From: Neopusillimonas maritima
Lineage (GTDB): Bacteria > Pseudomonadota > Gammaproteobacteria > Burkholderiales > Burkholderiaceae_B
Length of the DNA stretch: 64,000 nucleotides
Direction of reading: 5' to 3'
Assembly: GCF_003576595.1 (NCBI RefSeq)
Contig: NZ_NQOU01000001.1
Span: 188,337-252,336 of the forward strand
The notes below the pieces were generated by a model. That model saw nothing but the letters and a program-made list of their open reading frames with translations. It ran no database searches and was not told where the DNA came from. Of this stretch, positions 57,771-64,000 are shown piece after piece. Within the stretch, counting starts at the first letter, position 1. Every line of letters begins with the position of its first letter. The position numbers were made by a program, and so were the translations under genes.

Positions 57771-58013
57771 TCAACGATCAGGCAACTGATCGACCCCTTC
57801 CGACGGGGCCATGTACAGCGTCAGCGCACTCGACAACGCAGTCATAATCCAGAATAGAAAGAAGCCTGCTGTGTACACAACCTCGCGGCTAAAATGCATC
57901 GAGCCAAACACGGCAATATCCAGCGGATCAATTAATGCAAATACCGTGGCACTGCCCGCCCCCGCAAATAAAAACGAGGGCCACAGTATCCACATTAAAG
58001 AATAGCGACTCAT
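57771..58013 (-). CDS. Small membrane protein of the cco cluster
   Basis: Protein of 80 residues with two membrane helices (about 7-28 and 45-68). It overlaps the fixH stop by four bases and is the last gene of the leftward cco transcript. I do not recognise a named family. Its coupling to fixH suggests a role in oxidase assembly. Confidence 0.65.
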   Translation of the reverse strand: MSRYSLMWILWPSFLFAGAGSATVFALIDPLDIAVFGSMHFSREVVYTAGFFLFWIMTALSSALTLYMAPSEGVDQLPDR

Positions 58014-58279
58014 GGTGATTGTCTCCTGTTATGGGCTGCCGTCTCGGCAGACGTGTTTTTAGCGTCCATCTCCGGCAACGGCGCATCTTGTATTTTTTGC
58101 ACGACCAAACCTTTACGCTGCCCACCATCGTGAATCGCTTGATCACTGTAATAATGCACTGCCAGCACAATCGTTACCACGCAGCCCACCAAGGTAATAA
58201 ACGGGCCGGCCATCAAAATCCAGGGCCAGGGCTCTTTCCACCACGGGCGCGTGTCAGTATGGTTGAAATCTTGTTTCAT
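58010..58279 (-). CDS. ccoH: FixH/CcoH-family oxidase assembly protein, short form
   Basis: Protein of 89 residues. PWWKEPWPWILMAGPFITLVGCVVTIVLAV shows the FixH N-terminal membrane helix. The rest is a short charged tail, whereas full FixH has about 150 residues with a periplasmic domain. It helps cbb3 oxidase assembly, probably in copper delivery. It overlaps ccoG by four bases and the following small gene by four. Confidence 0.75.
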   Translation of the reverse strand: MKQDFNHTDTRPWWKEPWPWILMAGPFITLVGCVVTIVLAVHYYSDQAIHDGGQRKGLVVQKIQDAPLPEMDAKNTSAETAAHNRRQSP

Positions 58280-59793
58280 TGCGGGACATAAAAACTGGTT
58301 TGCTCAACAAGCTGCGCGCCTGATCCAGAGGCCGACTCGGCACTGGCGACGAACGAAATACTGTGCACGCCGGGGCCGGCCTGGTCTGCAGGCAAGCGCA
58401 CCAACACAGGCACCAACCGATGGCTGCCACCCGCTACTTCAATTGTGCCGGTGGGTTCACCTGTGGCAGCCAGCAATTCAAGCCCCGGCAAGCCATCGGC
58501 ACGCAATGTAACGGTAAGCGCTTTATCATCCGTGTTCATAATCTGCAAGCGATAAACATTCTCGATTAAATTGCCTGGAATCTCGCGACCCAGGCTGCCG
58601 CGATCGCGAATGATATCCATTTTCAGCGTTTCGCGGGTGAACAACGAGAAAGCGAATCCTGCTGCAATAACTGCCATCAGCCCCATATAAAACAGCACAC
58701 GCGGCCGCAAAACCCGCTTACGTGCTTGCGACTGGGTAAGGTCTTCTGTTATGGCGGCACCCGAGGTATAGCGAATCAGGCCTTTCGGGTAACCCACCTT
58801 GTCCATCACCTGATCACAAGCGTCGACACAGGCGCCGCAACCGATGCACATGTACTGCAAGCCATCGCGAATATCAATGCCCGTTGGGCAAACCTGAACA
58901 CACAAAGTGCAATCAACGCAATCACCCATGCCCGCTTCTTTATGATCAATTTGCCGTGAGCGTCCTCCTCTGGGCTCACCCCGTTTGTAGTCGTACGTCA
59001 CGACAAAAGTGTCGTCATCGACCATCACGCTTTGAAAGCGGGCATACGGGCACATGTATTTGCAAACCGCCTCGCGCATGAATCCTGCGTTACCCCATGT
59101 GGCAAAAGCATAAAACAACATCCAGAACCACTGCCATGGGCCAAGCGAAAAGGCGATTAAATCGGCGCCTAACGCACGGATGGGCGCGAAATAGCCAATA
59201 AAAGTAAAACCTGTCCAAAAGGCAATAACAATCCAAACGACATGTTTGGCCGCTTTCAACCGAAATTTGCGCCACGACCAGGGTTGACCGTCGAGCCGAA
59301 TGCGCGCCAGGCGATCGCCTTCAATTTTTCGCTCAACCCACATGAAAATTTCGGTATAAACCGTTTGCGGACACGCATAGCCACAAAACAATCGCCCGGC
59401 AATGGCGGTAAACAAAAATAGGGCAAATGCCGACAAAACAAGCAAGACGGCCAAGTACACGACGTCTTGCGGCCACAGCACCATGCCGAAGATATAAAAC
59501 TTACGGGCACCCAAATCGAACAGCACCGCCTGACGATCGCCCCAGGTTAACCAGGGCAGACCATAAAAAATGGCCTGTGTGAACAGCACCATAATGACGC
59601 GCCAGCGGGCATAAAGCCCGGTCACCGCACGCGGATAAACCTTACTGCGAACATCGGTAAGCGCTTTCTCAACCTGGGGTGAAACCCCACCCCGACGCGG
59701 CGCAGGCGTCACCTTGGGAGGCTGCCATGCGGGTGCGGCACCCTGACCCGTCTGGGTCAAGTCCTCCGACTGAGCAATAGGTTTCTTATCCAT
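58276..59793 (-). CDS. ccoG: Cytochrome c oxidase accessory protein CcoG (FixG)
   Basis: Membrane ferredoxin of 505 residues that reduces copper during cbb3 oxidase assembly. Five or so membrane helices carry FCGYACPQTVYTEIFMW, and two 4Fe-4S motifs follow: CVDCTLCVQVCP and CIGCGACVDACD (about 295-335). The C-terminal 130 residues are the Ig-like domain. It follows ccoP by 39 bases in the same direction. Confidence 0.95.
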   Translation of the reverse strand: MDKKPIAQSEDLTQTGQGAAPAWQPPKVTPAPRRGGVSPQVEKALTDVRSKVYPRAVTGLYARWRVIMVLFTQAIFYGLPWLTWGDRQAVLFDLGARKFYIFGMVLWPQDVVYLAVLLVLSAFALFLFTAIAGRLFCGYACPQTVYTEIFMWVERKIEGDRLARIRLDGQPWSWRKFRLKAAKHVVWIVIAFWTGFTFIGYFAPIRALGADLIAFSLGPWQWFWMLFYAFATWGNAGFMREAVCKYMCPYARFQSVMVDDDTFVVTYDYKRGEPRGGRSRQIDHKEAGMGDCVDCTLCVQVCPTGIDIRDGLQYMCIGCGACVDACDQVMDKVGYPKGLIRYTSGAAITEDLTQSQARKRVLRPRVLFYMGLMAVIAAGFAFSLFTRETLKMDIIRDRGSLGREIPGNLIENVYRLQIMNTDDKALTVTLRADGLPGLELLAATGEPTGTIEVAGGSHRLVPVLVRLPADQAGPGVHSISFVASAESASGSGAQLVEQTSFYVPQ

Positions 59794-59832: not shown

Positions 59833-60741
59833 TTAACGCGGAGAGTTTGATCGCCCCCATACCCAGGCCGCCAACATACGAATCTGTTCAGGAGTCAGCA
59901 CTCCCTCTTGAGCCGGCATCTGGTTATCGCGACCATTCAGAATAGTGTTCACAATCACATCCGCCGAACTACCATAAAGCCAGACGTCATCGGTAAGATT
60001 TGGCGCGCCCAGCGCCTGGTTACCCTTGCCGTCAACACCGTGGCACGCCACGCAATTATTCTCAAAACCTTGCTTTCCTCTTACGACCTGCAACGGATCA
60101 CTGGCCAGGCCGGAAAGTGAACGAACAAATTGCGCAATATCCGCTGCCTGATTCGCACTGACTTGTGCGCTCATGGGCGGCATCACACCGTGACGCCCTT
60201 TGGTAATCGAAGTCATGATTTGATCGGGCGAACCACCATAAAGCCAATCTTTATCAGTTAAGTTCGGAAAACTGACCGATCCACGCGCATCCGACCCATG
60301 ACATTGCGCACAGTTATTCAAGAATAGACGCTCACCAATCTGCCGGGCCTGCGGGTCGGCCGCGACCTGCTCAATAGGCATGGCCTCGTAACGCGCGTAG
60401 AACGGACGAATACGTTCAGACAACGCTTCTTGCGACTGCTTAACTTCCTGAGCCGTTGAGTAATTCAAAATCCCGTTAAAAATACCCAGGCCGGGATACA
60501 AAACCAAATAACCCACGCTAAAAACACATAAGGCCAGATAAAACACGGTCCACCAGCGCGGCACGGGATTGTTCAACTCCATAAGATTGCCATCCCACAC
60601 GTGCCCGGTGTTCTTGGCTTCTTTCACTTCCTTGCCCAGCCAGCGACGCTGGGTAAACAGCAACCAGACACAGAAAATAATTCCCGCCGCCGTCATGATG
60701 GCAATGAAATAAGCCCAAAAACTGCTCACGAAATCAGTCAT
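59833..60741 (-). CDS. ccoP: cbb3-type cytochrome c oxidase subunit III
   Basis: Diheme cytochrome c of 302 residues. Membrane helices lie at about 8-30 and 60-80, and the two heme sites are CAQCH (about 143) and CVACH (about 230). It passes electrons to CcoO and the catalytic subunit. It overlaps ccoQ by eight bases. Confidence 0.95.
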   Translation of the reverse strand: MTDFVSSFWAYFIAIMTAAGIIFCVWLLFTQRRWLGKEVKEAKNTGHVWDGNLMELNNPVPRWWTVFYLALCVFSVGYLVLYPGLGIFNGILNYSTAQEVKQSQEALSERIRPFYARYEAMPIEQVAADPQARQIGERLFLNNCAQCHGSDARGSVSFPNLTDKDWLYGGSPDQIMTSITKGRHGVMPPMSAQVSANQAADIAQFVRSLSGLASDPLQVVRGKQGFENNCVACHGVDGKGNQALGAPNLTDDVWLYGSSADVIVNTILNGRDNQMPAQEGVLTPEQIRMLAAWVWGRSNSPR

Positions 60742-60936: not shown

Positions 60937-61596
60937 CTATCGGCTCCCTTCCGCAACAGCGCGCGCCGCAGCCTCACGCCCGGCCACACCCAGACTTTGC
61001 AAATACATCACCAGGGCATCTTCTTCGGTTCGATCTTGCAATTGCTCCGGGGCTTGTGCAATTTGCTCGTCGGTATAAGGCACACCAATCGCCCTTAAAG
61101 CACGCATGCGACCCTGCACATCGACCCCTTCGACCGAGTTATGTTGAAGCCAGGGATAAGCAGGCATGTTTGATTCGGGTACCAGGTCGCGCGGATTGCG
61201 CAAGTGAATACGGTGCCATTCGTCGGAATAACGGCCGCCGACACGGGCCAGATCGGGCCCGGTGCGTTTTGAGCCCCATAAAAACGGATGGTCGTACACA
61301 AACTCACCGGCTAACGAATAAGGACCGTATCGCTGCACTTCCGATTGCAGCATACGAATTTGTTGCGAGTGACAACCCACACACCCTTCACGAATATAAA
61401 TATCGCGCCCAACCAGTTGAAGCGCTTCGTAGGGCTCGACCCCTTCCGTCGGTTCCGTTGTAGAGTGCTGAAAGTAAAGCGGCACAATTTGCACCAGGCC
61501 GGCGAAGCTCACCACCAGAATACTGGCAATAATGAGCAACCCGATATTGGTTTCCAGTGTTTCGTGACTGAAAAACTTTTTCTTTTGATTGGCCAT
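60937..61596 (-). CDS. ccoO: cbb3-type oxidase subunit II
   Basis: Monoheme cytochrome c of 219 residues. N-terminal membrane anchor at about 15-38. The heme motif is [13 protein letters not shown] (about 71-83), and the axial methionine is expected in [11 protein letters not shown]. It hands electrons from CcoP to CcoN. It starts 11 bases after ccoN. Confidence 0.95.
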
Positions 61597-61607
61597 TCAT
61601 CTACTCC

Positions 61608-63113
61608 TTAAGCCGACACCGGGCCTGTGACAGGTTTATCGGAAGGCGGCCCCACGAGCTCCGGCTGGGTGCTGTCAGGGTTATACAGATAAACCACCGG
61701 GTTGGGCTTGTCCTGCCCCTGCAACGTCTTCCAGGTGTTCCAGGCCATCACGAGCATGCCGGCCAGAAAGAAGAACCCACCCAGCAAACGAATGGCGTAC
61801 AACGGGTACGTTGCCTGCAGTGCTTCAACAAAGCTGTAAACCAGAGTGCCGTCTTCAGCCGTGGCGCGCCACATTAACCCCTGCATGACACCGGCAACCC
61901 ACATTGAGGCGATATACAGCACCACCCCGATCGTGGCCAGCCAAAAATGCAGCTCAACCTGTTTGGGACTGGCCATTTCCGAGCGGCCATACAAACGTGG
62001 AATCATGTAGTAGAAGGAACCAAAAATAGTCATCGCAACCCAACCGAGCGCGCCCACGTGCACGTGCCCCACTGTCCAGTCGGTGTAATGTGACAAGGCA
62101 TTCACCGTACGGATCGACAGCATTGAGCCCTCAAAAGTCGCCATGCCGTAGAAAGACAAGCCTGTGACCAGGAACTTCAAAATGGTATCGGTACGCAAGC
62201 GGTGCCATGCACCTGATACGGTCATGATGCCGTTAATCATGCCGCCCCATGACGGTGCCAGCAAAATCAAGGAAAAGATCATGCCCAGTGCCTGGGTCCA
62301 GTCGGGCAAAGAGGTGTAATGCAAATGGTGCGGGCCGGCCCACATATAGGTAAAAGCCAGCGCCCAGAAATGCACAATAGACAGGCGATAAGAATAGATT
62401 GGCCGGTTCGCCTGCTTGGGCACGAAGTAATACATCATGCCCAGGAAGCTGGTGGTAAGGAAAAACCCCACCGCATTATGCCCATACCACCACTGCACCA
62501 TGGCATCTTGCACACCCGAATAAACGGAATACGATTTCCACATGGAAACCGGGATTTCAATGTTGTTGAAAATATGCAGGATGGCGATGGTTAGGATATA
62601 TGAGCCAAAAAACCAATTGGCCACGTAAATGTGCTTTACACGACGTTTAAAGATGGTGCCGAAAAACACGACGGCGTAAGCCACCCAAACCAGGGTGATC
62701 AGAATATCAATCGGCCATTCGTATTCGGCATACTCTTTGGTGCTGGTATAACCCAAAGGCAAGGTTAAAAAACCGGCCAGCAAACAAACTTGCCAACCCC
62801 AGAACGTAAAGGCCGCCAGCTTATCGGAGAACAAACGCACCTGACAGGTTCGCTGCACCACGTAGTACGAGGTTGCAAACAAAGCCGTACCGCCGAAGGC
62901 AAAAATCACGGTATTGGTATGAACCGGGCGCAAACGCCCGTAACTAAGCCACGGCGTATTGAAATTCAAATCGGGCCAGATCAACTGTGCCGCGATAAGA
63001 ACGCCTACTGCCATGCCCACAACCCCCCACACAATGGTCATGACGGTAAATTGCCTGACCACCCCATAGTTGAAGGTTTCTGGCTGCTTATCCCGCGTGC
63101 CGGAATTGCCCAT
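61608..63113 (-). CDS. ccoN: cbb3-type oxidase catalytic subunit I
   Basis: Heme-copper oxidase subunit of 501 residues with about 12 membrane helices. It contains the heme and CuB ligands: [25 protein letters not shown] (CuB histidines) and [13 protein letters not shown] (heme histidines). It reduces oxygen to water at high affinity, for growth at low oxygen. AGGGGA precedes the ATG. It leads the NOQP operon, likely under FNR-type control. Confidence 0.97.
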
Positions 63114-63174: not shown

Positions 63175-63378
63175 TTATTCGCTGCTATCACGTCGTGACT
63201 CTTTCTCTTCTTCTCGCTCTTGCATCTTGGGTTCCGGCGTATCGTTATCCTCCAGAATTGATCGCGCCGCCTCGTCGGTATCTTCAAACTGCCCTGAAAA
63301 AATGGCCCACCAAAAAGCGGCACCGATTAACACGACCAATATGAGCGAAATAGGTAACAATAAATACAGCGCCCCCAT
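63175..63378 (-). CDS. ccoS: cbb3 oxidase maturation protein CcoS
   Basis: Protein of 67 residues from the ATG at 63378. One membrane helix (MGALYLLLPISLILVVLIGAAFWWAIFSGQFED) contains the family pattern WAIFSGQFED. CcoS is needed to insert heme and copper into the oxidase. It follows the ccoI stop by four bases. The longer frame to 63456 lies inside ccoI. Confidence 0.9.
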   Translation of the reverse strand: MGALYLLLPISLILVVLIGAAFWWAIFSGQFEDTDEAARSILEDNDTPEPKMQEREEEKESRRDSSE

Positions 63379-63382
63379 TGGC

Positions 63383-64000
63383 CTAACCCTGAACGGCCCG
63401 GCCCACCCACACGCCGGCCAGTTCACGGGATTGTCGGCGATACAAACGCAAAGCATTTGCCGCTACGGCAAGCGACGACACCAGCATGGTGATCGCCGCC
63501 AACCAGGGTTGCACATAACCCAATGCCGCTAAAGGTGTAAGCAATAAGTGCCATATCATGGAACCATACAAATTCTGATGCGCTACCCGCGTTGTGTCTT
63601 TGGATAATTGTTCAAGGTGGCGGGAAGAAACCTGTTGACGCTGGTACAAGCTTGCGTGCGCGGCGGCAATAGCCGTAGGCACCGACATTGCCAAGGCACA
63701 CGGGCAACTGATTACCAGCAAAGCAACCGTCACCGCTACGGCATGTTCCGGTGCGAAAACAAACCAATATGCCCCCGCCAGCGCGGCCAAAGTAAGTTGC
63801 GCAACGGTAAACCAAAGCGCAATACGGTCGGCACCCGCCGACAAAGCATGGCGTAATGATTGAATATTTTCATGAAAAGCGCCGTGCGCCATGGTTTGTT
63901 GCGCGCAAAACTCCAAGTAGCGTGCCGTGAGCAGGAAAGCCACAAACATAGTGACCGACTCAAAATACACTTCACCGTGGTTGACCCAGGTAGCGTAAAC
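63383..64000 (-). CDS. ccoI: CcoI/FixI-like P-type ATPase relic or variant lacking cytoplasmic catalytic domains (N-terminus outside window)
   Basis: The frame is open to the window edge, so only the last 205 residues are visible. They match the C-terminal half of the copper ATPase CcoI in membrane parts only: helix M2 (VYFESVTMFVAFLLTARYLE, 11-30), M3 (61-82), M4 with the metal-binding CPC (99-101), M5 (148-161) and M6 with the conserved SS..V..NALRL pattern. The actuator domain with TGE between M2 and M3, and the phosphorylation/nucleotide domain with DKTGT between M4 and M5, are missing. Each is replaced by about 30 residues in frame. ATP-driven pumping is therefore impossible by this chain. 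It lies upstream of ccoS as in normal clusters. Confidence 0.85.
   Translation of the reverse strand, partial: VYATWVNHGEVYFESVTMFVAFLLTARYLEFCAQQTMAHGAFHENIQSLRHALSAGADRIALWFTVAQLTLAALAGAYWFVFAPEHAVAVTVALLVISCPCALAMSVPTAIAAAHASLYQRQQVSSRHLEQLSKDTTRVAHQNLYGSMIWHLLLTPLAALGYVQPWLAAITMLVSSLAVAANALRLYRRQSRELAGVWVGRAVQG

Follow-up and report, generated by a model that had tools for sequence, protein, structure and literature searches.

The copper ATPase of cbb3 oxidase, CcoI (the CcoI/FixI/CopA2-type P1B ATPase), is treated as an ATP-driven exporter, and the available excerpts on R. capsulatus (PMC8475189) and C. jejuni (PMC8267372) differ on whether its loss can be rescued by copper. In R. capsulatus, as far as the excerpted report goes, ATP hydrolysis by CcoI was needed for copper movement, a CPC mutant failed even with extra copper, a ccoI deletion was rescued neither by added copper nor by more CopA, and the cytosol was considered virtually free of unbound copper (PMC8475189). 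On the other hand, the oxidase of a C. jejuni ccoI mutant was largely restored by excess copper, and a ctpA mutant of R. gelatinosus was described as largely rescuable, in the part of the second report used here (PMC8267372). In B. bronchiseptica, ccoN transcripts were the highest among the oxidase loci and a strain with cbb3 as its only oxidase could not be made, according to excerpts of another study (PMC11257404). For the CopA1-type exporter AfCopA, the available portion of a further report assigns roles in the copper path to M158, E205, D336, CPC, Tyr-Asn and MxxSS (PMC9433437).

Here, we describe a short ccoI gene that is predicted to keep the membrane helices of this ATPase and that has lost the motor. 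Its product is a pseudo-ATPase under selection, which is by descent a member of the CcoI lineage and does not show the features that define a working P-type ATPase. iRhoms, for example, are membrane pseudoenzymes that keep the membrane core of an enzyme after catalysis has been lost; compared with them, the short CcoI lacks whole catalytic domains and retains metal-site residues. Its proposed job, ATP-free copper delivery towards CcoN, would be shared with SenC/Sco1 and PCuAC, whose folds are unrelated to it.

Gene structure and loss of cytoplasmic domains

The gene lies at one end of the window (the whole stretch of DNA that was analysed, 64,000 nucleotides), which corresponds to positions 188337-252336 of a 1,020,595-base contig (1.02 Mb; C11):

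63383..64000, minus strand: final 205 codons with stop of short ccoI (motorless CcoI), an uninterrupted ORF to the window end

On the contig the gene is complete as a 321-aa ORF with an ATG start (C11:251719-252684), and since this start lies 348 bases past the window, MA, MB and M1, the helices preceding M2, are encoded by the gene as well. The initial annotation had described helices M2 to M6, the CPC motif and the NALRL motif in a single frame, which is borne out by the minus-strand frame from 63383 to the window end and by the intact ORF found past position 64000. The assembly deletion that it had named as a possible objection was not seen, as the contig is intact and a genus-mate genome (G003) carries the same gene at 99% identity. 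An assembly gap or an artefact of the window edge was also rejected, because the contig continues and the ORF is complete.

An AlphaFold2 model of the short CcoI based on 26 sequences (mean pLDDT 85.1, pTM 0.80) predicted helices at residues 15-46, 54-82, 84-93, 102-121, 129-153, 157-198, 200-213, 217-235, 242-275 and 281-320, with a helix break at 214-216 that corresponds to the CPC kink. All of the first eight Foldseek matches in the PDB were to P1B ATPases, with E<=0.001 in four cases. Fold matches to 7r0g (AfCopA) and 4bbj (LpCopA) were obtained, and the family profile matched LpCopA (3rfu) with E 5.7e-25 in three main stretches, skipping the actuator and P/N domains. These CopA1-type exporters are complete copper-export ATPases, unlike the short CcoI.

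For comparison, we used 106 collected short sequences (93 unique), 19 fetched full-length CcoI sequences, and the best 80 of 453 related stretches from a scan of named genomes (hereafter the best-80 loci). Two linkers were recognized by alignment with full CcoI:

63833..63895, minus strand: linker replacing the actuator domain, about residues 152-172
63578..63643, minus strand: linker replacing the P and N domains, about residues 236-257

The replacement of both large cytoplasmic loops by linkers, as initially annotated, was thus confirmed, with lengths of ~20-30 residues that vary with the helix boundaries chosen. Mean top-residue frequency in the first linker (residues 154-172) was 0.45. The spacing between CPC and the M5 pair was 52 in 87 of the 93 unique short forms versus 289-325 in full CcoI (14 of 19 sequences measurable by pattern), and the short protein has about 320 aa versus open frames of 672-881 for full CcoI. 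Neither TGE[SA] nor DKTG occurred in any of the short forms of the best-80 loci (0/80 each), whereas full CcoI contained DKTGT in 19/19 and the string TGE in 16/19 sequences. In Pfam, the PF00122 match of the short CcoI was confined to positions 106-178 of the 181 in the model, DUF1509 remained sub-threshold (E 0.045), and the P-type ATPase models of NCBIfam scored far under their cut-offs. The N-terminal metal-binding domain, a region outside the view of the initial annotation, is also gone: the protein begins just before its first helix and has no Pfam match for such a domain, and none of the eight genomes with PF12156 among the 268 examined from the family was a short-form genome. Unlike CcoI, the short form therefore has no N-terminal metal-binding domain, TGE, DKTGT or nucleotide domain. 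Lacking the A, P and N domains, the short CcoI would have no phosphorylation cycle, so that ATP-driven transport by it, as read from its sequence, would be excluded on established P-type biochemistry.

Residues of the intramembrane copper path

Three elements of the copper path were located in the window:

63698..63706, minus strand: CPC (C215-P216-C217) in M4, transmembrane copper site 1; 93/93 short, 19/19 full CcoI
63548..63553, minus strand: W266-H267 in M5, in place of Tyr-Asn by comparison with full CcoI
63473..63487, minus strand: MxxSS (M288, S291, S292) in M6; 93/93 short, 19/19 full CcoI

CPC and MxxSS were also present in every one of the best-80 loci (80/80 each), and the likeness to CcoI extends to MMQ in the first helix (75 of the best-80 loci) and to a NALRL-like end. 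A difference from CcoI was found in M5, where Tyr-Asn (19/19 full sequences) is replaced by Trp/Phe-His: His was invariant among the 93 unique short forms, preceded by Trp in 90 and by Phe in 3. The unusual WH pair reported by the initial annotation is hence a property of the short form as a whole. The His pattern was found in 79 of the best-80 loci, and the other one (L059) has Trp-His before Pro-Met-Ala.

In an alignment with LpCopA, M101, D130, E146, D174, C215, C217, W266-H267, M288 and S291-S292 fell on known copper-path positions; D130 is presumably the outer-side position. M101 and D/E130 were invariant (93/93 each). The cytosolic entry positions were looser, with E146 in 90 of the 93 sequences and D174 being D in 59 and N in 34, and since they are loosened rather than lost, copper could still enter from the cytosol. 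Such conservation of helices and intramembrane sites, including the entry-side M101 and the outer-side D/E130, would also fit a passive Cu(I) channel, in which the helix bundle without gating domains leaks copper down its gradient near CcoN. We regard this explanation as unlikely, as an open copper pore would be expected to be toxic and the cytosol, in the excerpted R. capsulatus work, is virtually without free copper (PMC8475189).

The most conserved helix of the short form was M2 (mean top-residue frequency 0.91). In addition, 23 positions had a fixation of 95% or more among the short sequences and below 50% among the full ones; some of them lie in the poorly alignable N-terminus, one is opposite a gap in the full set, and because the short set is less diverse than the full set, they are indicative only. 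Both features could be accounted for if the protein were a scaffold that serves CcoN, CcoS or the insertion of haem independently of copper and has kept its Cys residues for the sake of folding. This is rather improbable in our judgment, considering that the recognized ligand positions were conserved in 93/93 sequences and that the one which changed became another possible copper ligand.

Distribution, selection and descent

Among the 61 genomes nearest to the window, 26 of the 37 belonging to the same family (Alcaligenaceae, assigned from named relatives) had a match over most of the protein, with frames of 312-392 aa, and none of the 24 genomes outside the family had such a match. A profile built from these 26 sequences and run on 268 family genomes matched 202 at E<=1e-20 (180 below 1e-100, 4 between and 18 weaker), places and frames being known among the matches listed (the upper part). 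Seven of the 18 weaker matches were fetched (L134-L140), and all seven were full-length ATPases with DKTGT. One of the intermediate genomes (G267) has a whole frame of 387 aa, lengthened in a linker and followed by ccoS and ccoN, and in another (G275), whose match scored between 1e-100 and 1e-20, the locus is at a contig edge. The remaining two intermediate matches, in G139 and G124, are damaged copies described below. Titles among the best-80 loci included Alcaligenaceae bacterium, Pusillimonas, Pollutimonas, Candidimonas, Castellaniella, Alcaligenes, Paenalcaligenes, Achromobacter, Advenella, Pelistega and Bordetella (B. petrii), the genera being members of Alcaligenaceae.

Short forms in other families were also sought. 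In a sample of 399 genomes of the order (at most 386 from outside the family), there were nine matches at E<=1e-50, all within the family, and a sample of 369 genomes of the class likewise yielded no short form from other families. In this second sample, 120 genomes besides the genome of the window itself matched at E<=1e-30; the matches listed covered about residues 10-192 of 321 and lay in frames of at least 525 aa, except for a 374-aa frame running off its contig end (G941). This candidate distribution was thus rejected for both sets, which are samples and leave absence elsewhere unproved. No description of a motorless CcoI was found in the open-licence literature, the part of the literature covered by our search.

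The short form is under purifying selection. For pairs with at least 80% identity, which are not independent, dN/dS (NG86) had a median of 0.12 and a range of 0.016-0.26 (305 usable of 320 pairs), and comparison of the gene with that of G003 gave dN 0.0028 and dS 0.171. In a tree of 19 full and 38 of the 93 unique short sequences (297 columns), the split between short and full forms had an ultrafast bootstrap of 100 in the consensus and a branch of 0.59; the short clade is labelled 71 in the drawn tree after rerooting, versus 100 for the consensus split. CcoI/FixI/CopA2-type ATPases were nearest to the short form, the nearest full sequences to the short clade in the drawn tree being L135 and L136, both of genus g65. 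As judged from these sequences, the short form shares its descent with the CcoI lineage and has one origin on present evidence.

Damaged copies were few among those seen. In G139 the short gene (L213) is split by an IS481-type transposase into two pieces separated by ~1.07 kb, and the adjoining ccoN was matched in two frames. In G124, whose copy (L217, C48) is an open frame of 250 aa at the end of a contig, ~48 residues are missing from the region of M2 and the first linker, and this genome has no ccoN match. The third case is a second short copy in G100, which together with ccoS precedes a second ccoN and has its last ~34 residues in another frame. According to the portions available of two reports, ccoN is broken in B. 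pertussis (PMC13038864, PMC11257404). Although these three copies could be cited for a decaying gene or an assembly error, that explanation, to which we give a negligible probability, has already been refuted by the number of genomes with a short form scoring E<1e-100 (180 of 268), by the low dN/dS and by the common origin. The initial annotation had proposed in-frame removal of domains with selection on the membrane part rather than decay, and had named a copy full of disabling changes as a finding that would speak against it; the search in related genomes and the dN/dS analysis upheld the former and did not show the latter.

Operon context and association with cbb3 genes

The short gene is followed in the window by the genes of cbb3 oxidase:

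63175..63378, minus strand: ccoS, directly downstream of short ccoI (FixS PF03597, E 6e-18)
61608..63113, minus strand: ccoN, catalytic subunit of cbb3 oxidase (ORF; TIGR00780 in the genome, E 1.2e-220)
60937..61596, minus strand: presumed ccoO (ORF; 76 of the best-80 loci)
59833..60741, minus strand: presumed ccoP (ORF; 74 of the best-80 loci)
58276..59793, minus strand: presumed ccoG, putative cupric reductase (ORF; 72 of the best-80 loci, the remaining 8 ending before reaching it)

We take ccoO and ccoP to be so from their sequence and operon position. In the best-80 loci, the short gene was followed by ccoS in all 80 and by ccoN in 79, the exception being at a contig edge. Full CcoI preceded ccoS and ccoN in 11 of the 19 fetched full-length loci and in 5 of 7 within the family, where the other two (L137 and L140) have ccoI-ccoS placed after ccoNOP; other full-length loci were in stretches too short or differently arranged. 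CcoI thus shares its place in the cco operon with the short form in most fetched relatives, and the likeliest history is that the motor was lost inside an already existing cco operon.

The gene for ccoN was found in 203 of the 268 family genomes (E<=1e-100) and in 178 of the 180 short-form genomes, the two others being G079 and G106. Within the 203 ccoN genomes, the short form was found at E<1e-100 in 178, a two-piece match in 2 (G267 and G139), a weaker match, interpreted as a full-length ATPase, in 17, and no match at E<=1e-20 in 6. In two of these six (G199, G202), ATPase frames of 756 aa lie near ccoN, in another two (G152, G177) ccoN is at a contig start, and the last two are G206 and G208. 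In G081 ccoN occurs twice, and each ccoN has a short copy beside it (two in all).

Other ATPases, copper supply and possible function

By their motifs, the four other P-type loci of the genome are a CopA, a copper ATPase cut by an insertion sequence, a Zn/Cd type and a CPH type, and a second full CcoI was accordingly rejected. The CopA is intact and of the copper type (775-aa frame with CPC, Tyr-Asn and MxxSS), which answers the initial question of whether a full-length copper ATPase exists elsewhere. The cut gene (contig C20, ~229.0-233.8 kb, L201) is a copper-type P1B ATPase interrupted by an IS66-family transposase just before the DKTG motif, with the second half beyond the transposase. A query with the P/N domains of CcoI matched three complete ATPases and this second half; since these are whole or IS66-cut ATPases, a free-standing motor gene elsewhere in the genome was rejected. 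Three Sco1/SenC proteins over the cut-off and one PCuAC were also found in the genome.

Among the 180 short-form genomes, 41 were tested and all of them had at least one further PF00122 P-type ATPase. In eleven of the 41, PF00122 matched twice; with one match assigned to the short form, the remaining one was by motif a copper-type CopA (CPC, Tyr-Asn, MxxSS) in 10. The short CcoI might be a subunit associated with a full copper ATPase such as CopA, which would gain specificity for CcoN from it or supply it with a motor. However, CopA is common anyway, and in a metagenome-assembled genome (G217, 92% complete) the sole other P-type ATPase is by motif of the Zn/Cd type. Sharing of motors is also not known among P-type ATPases, and we consider such a partnership unlikely.

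A relay for Cu(I) in cbb3 assembly, that is, a membrane-bound hand-over for CuB insertion into CcoN, appears to us somewhat better than an even chance. The membrane domain of CcoI would have been freed from its ATP motor, with Cu(I) most likely still held at the CPC/MxxSS site and His in place of the usual Asn. Cu(I) may be taken from export by CopA or from the periplasmic chaperones SenC/Sco and PCuAC, the source thus probably being other pumps together with periplasmic chaperones. The short protein, as a membrane relay or docking protein in contact with CcoN, would then pass Cu(I) on for CuB insertion together with CcoS. We favour this role because the invariant Cys-Cys-His-Met-Ser set, the linkage to ccoS and ccoN and the copper chaperones of the same genome all fit it. 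The failure of the CPC mutant of CcoI in R. capsulatus, even with extra copper, and the inability of more CopA to take over from CcoI there also speak for it (PMC8475189). A bolder version, in which an ATP-free copper insertase with a retuned Cys-Cys-His-Met site would put Cu(I) directly into CcoN, is tentative and falls somewhat short of even odds.

Several observations count against the relay. One is the need for ATP hydrolysis by CcoI in R. capsulatus, as excerpted (PMC8475189). B. bronchiseptica presumably carries the short form, and its failure to be reduced to cbb3 alone, in the available portion of that study, would argue against efficient delivery (PMC11257404). The two short-form genomes without ccoN, together with G206 and G208, also weigh against it. 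In addition, the large restoration of the C. jejuni oxidase by copper without CcoI, as given in the part of that report used here, implies that a relay is not needed everywhere (PMC8267372).

Our results suggest that copper delivery to cbb3 is possible without the motor of the pump; if so, cbb3 oxidase would be metallated without a dedicated pump through much of one bacterial family. Motorless bacteria that keep the membrane copper site offer a natural experiment separating pumping from hand-over, and a P-type ATPase membrane domain standing without cytoplasmic domains should be useful for structural work on copper sites.

Additional genes at the end of the operon

Beyond ccoG, the window contains a further short gene:

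58010..58279, minus strand: short fixH/ccoH-like gene, 89 aa (PF05751, E 0.0015, 19.0 bits, under the 23-bit cut-off)

Genes of this kind encode 60-109 aa in 71 short-form loci. Frames recognized by eye as FixH/CcoH-like were 67-70 aa long in two relatives that have full CcoI and 167-181 aa long in four other Burkholderiales loci. FixH/CcoH is apparently a second assembly factor that has been reduced, earlier than or apart from CcoI: since the short FixH is also found beside full CcoI in the two relatives, its shortening was earlier or separate, and the stripping of both proteins as one event was rejected. Finally, positions 57771-58013 encode an 80-aa protein that had no Pfam match and was found in 63 of the best-80 loci; proteins resembling it follow ccoG/fixH in some other Burkholderiales.
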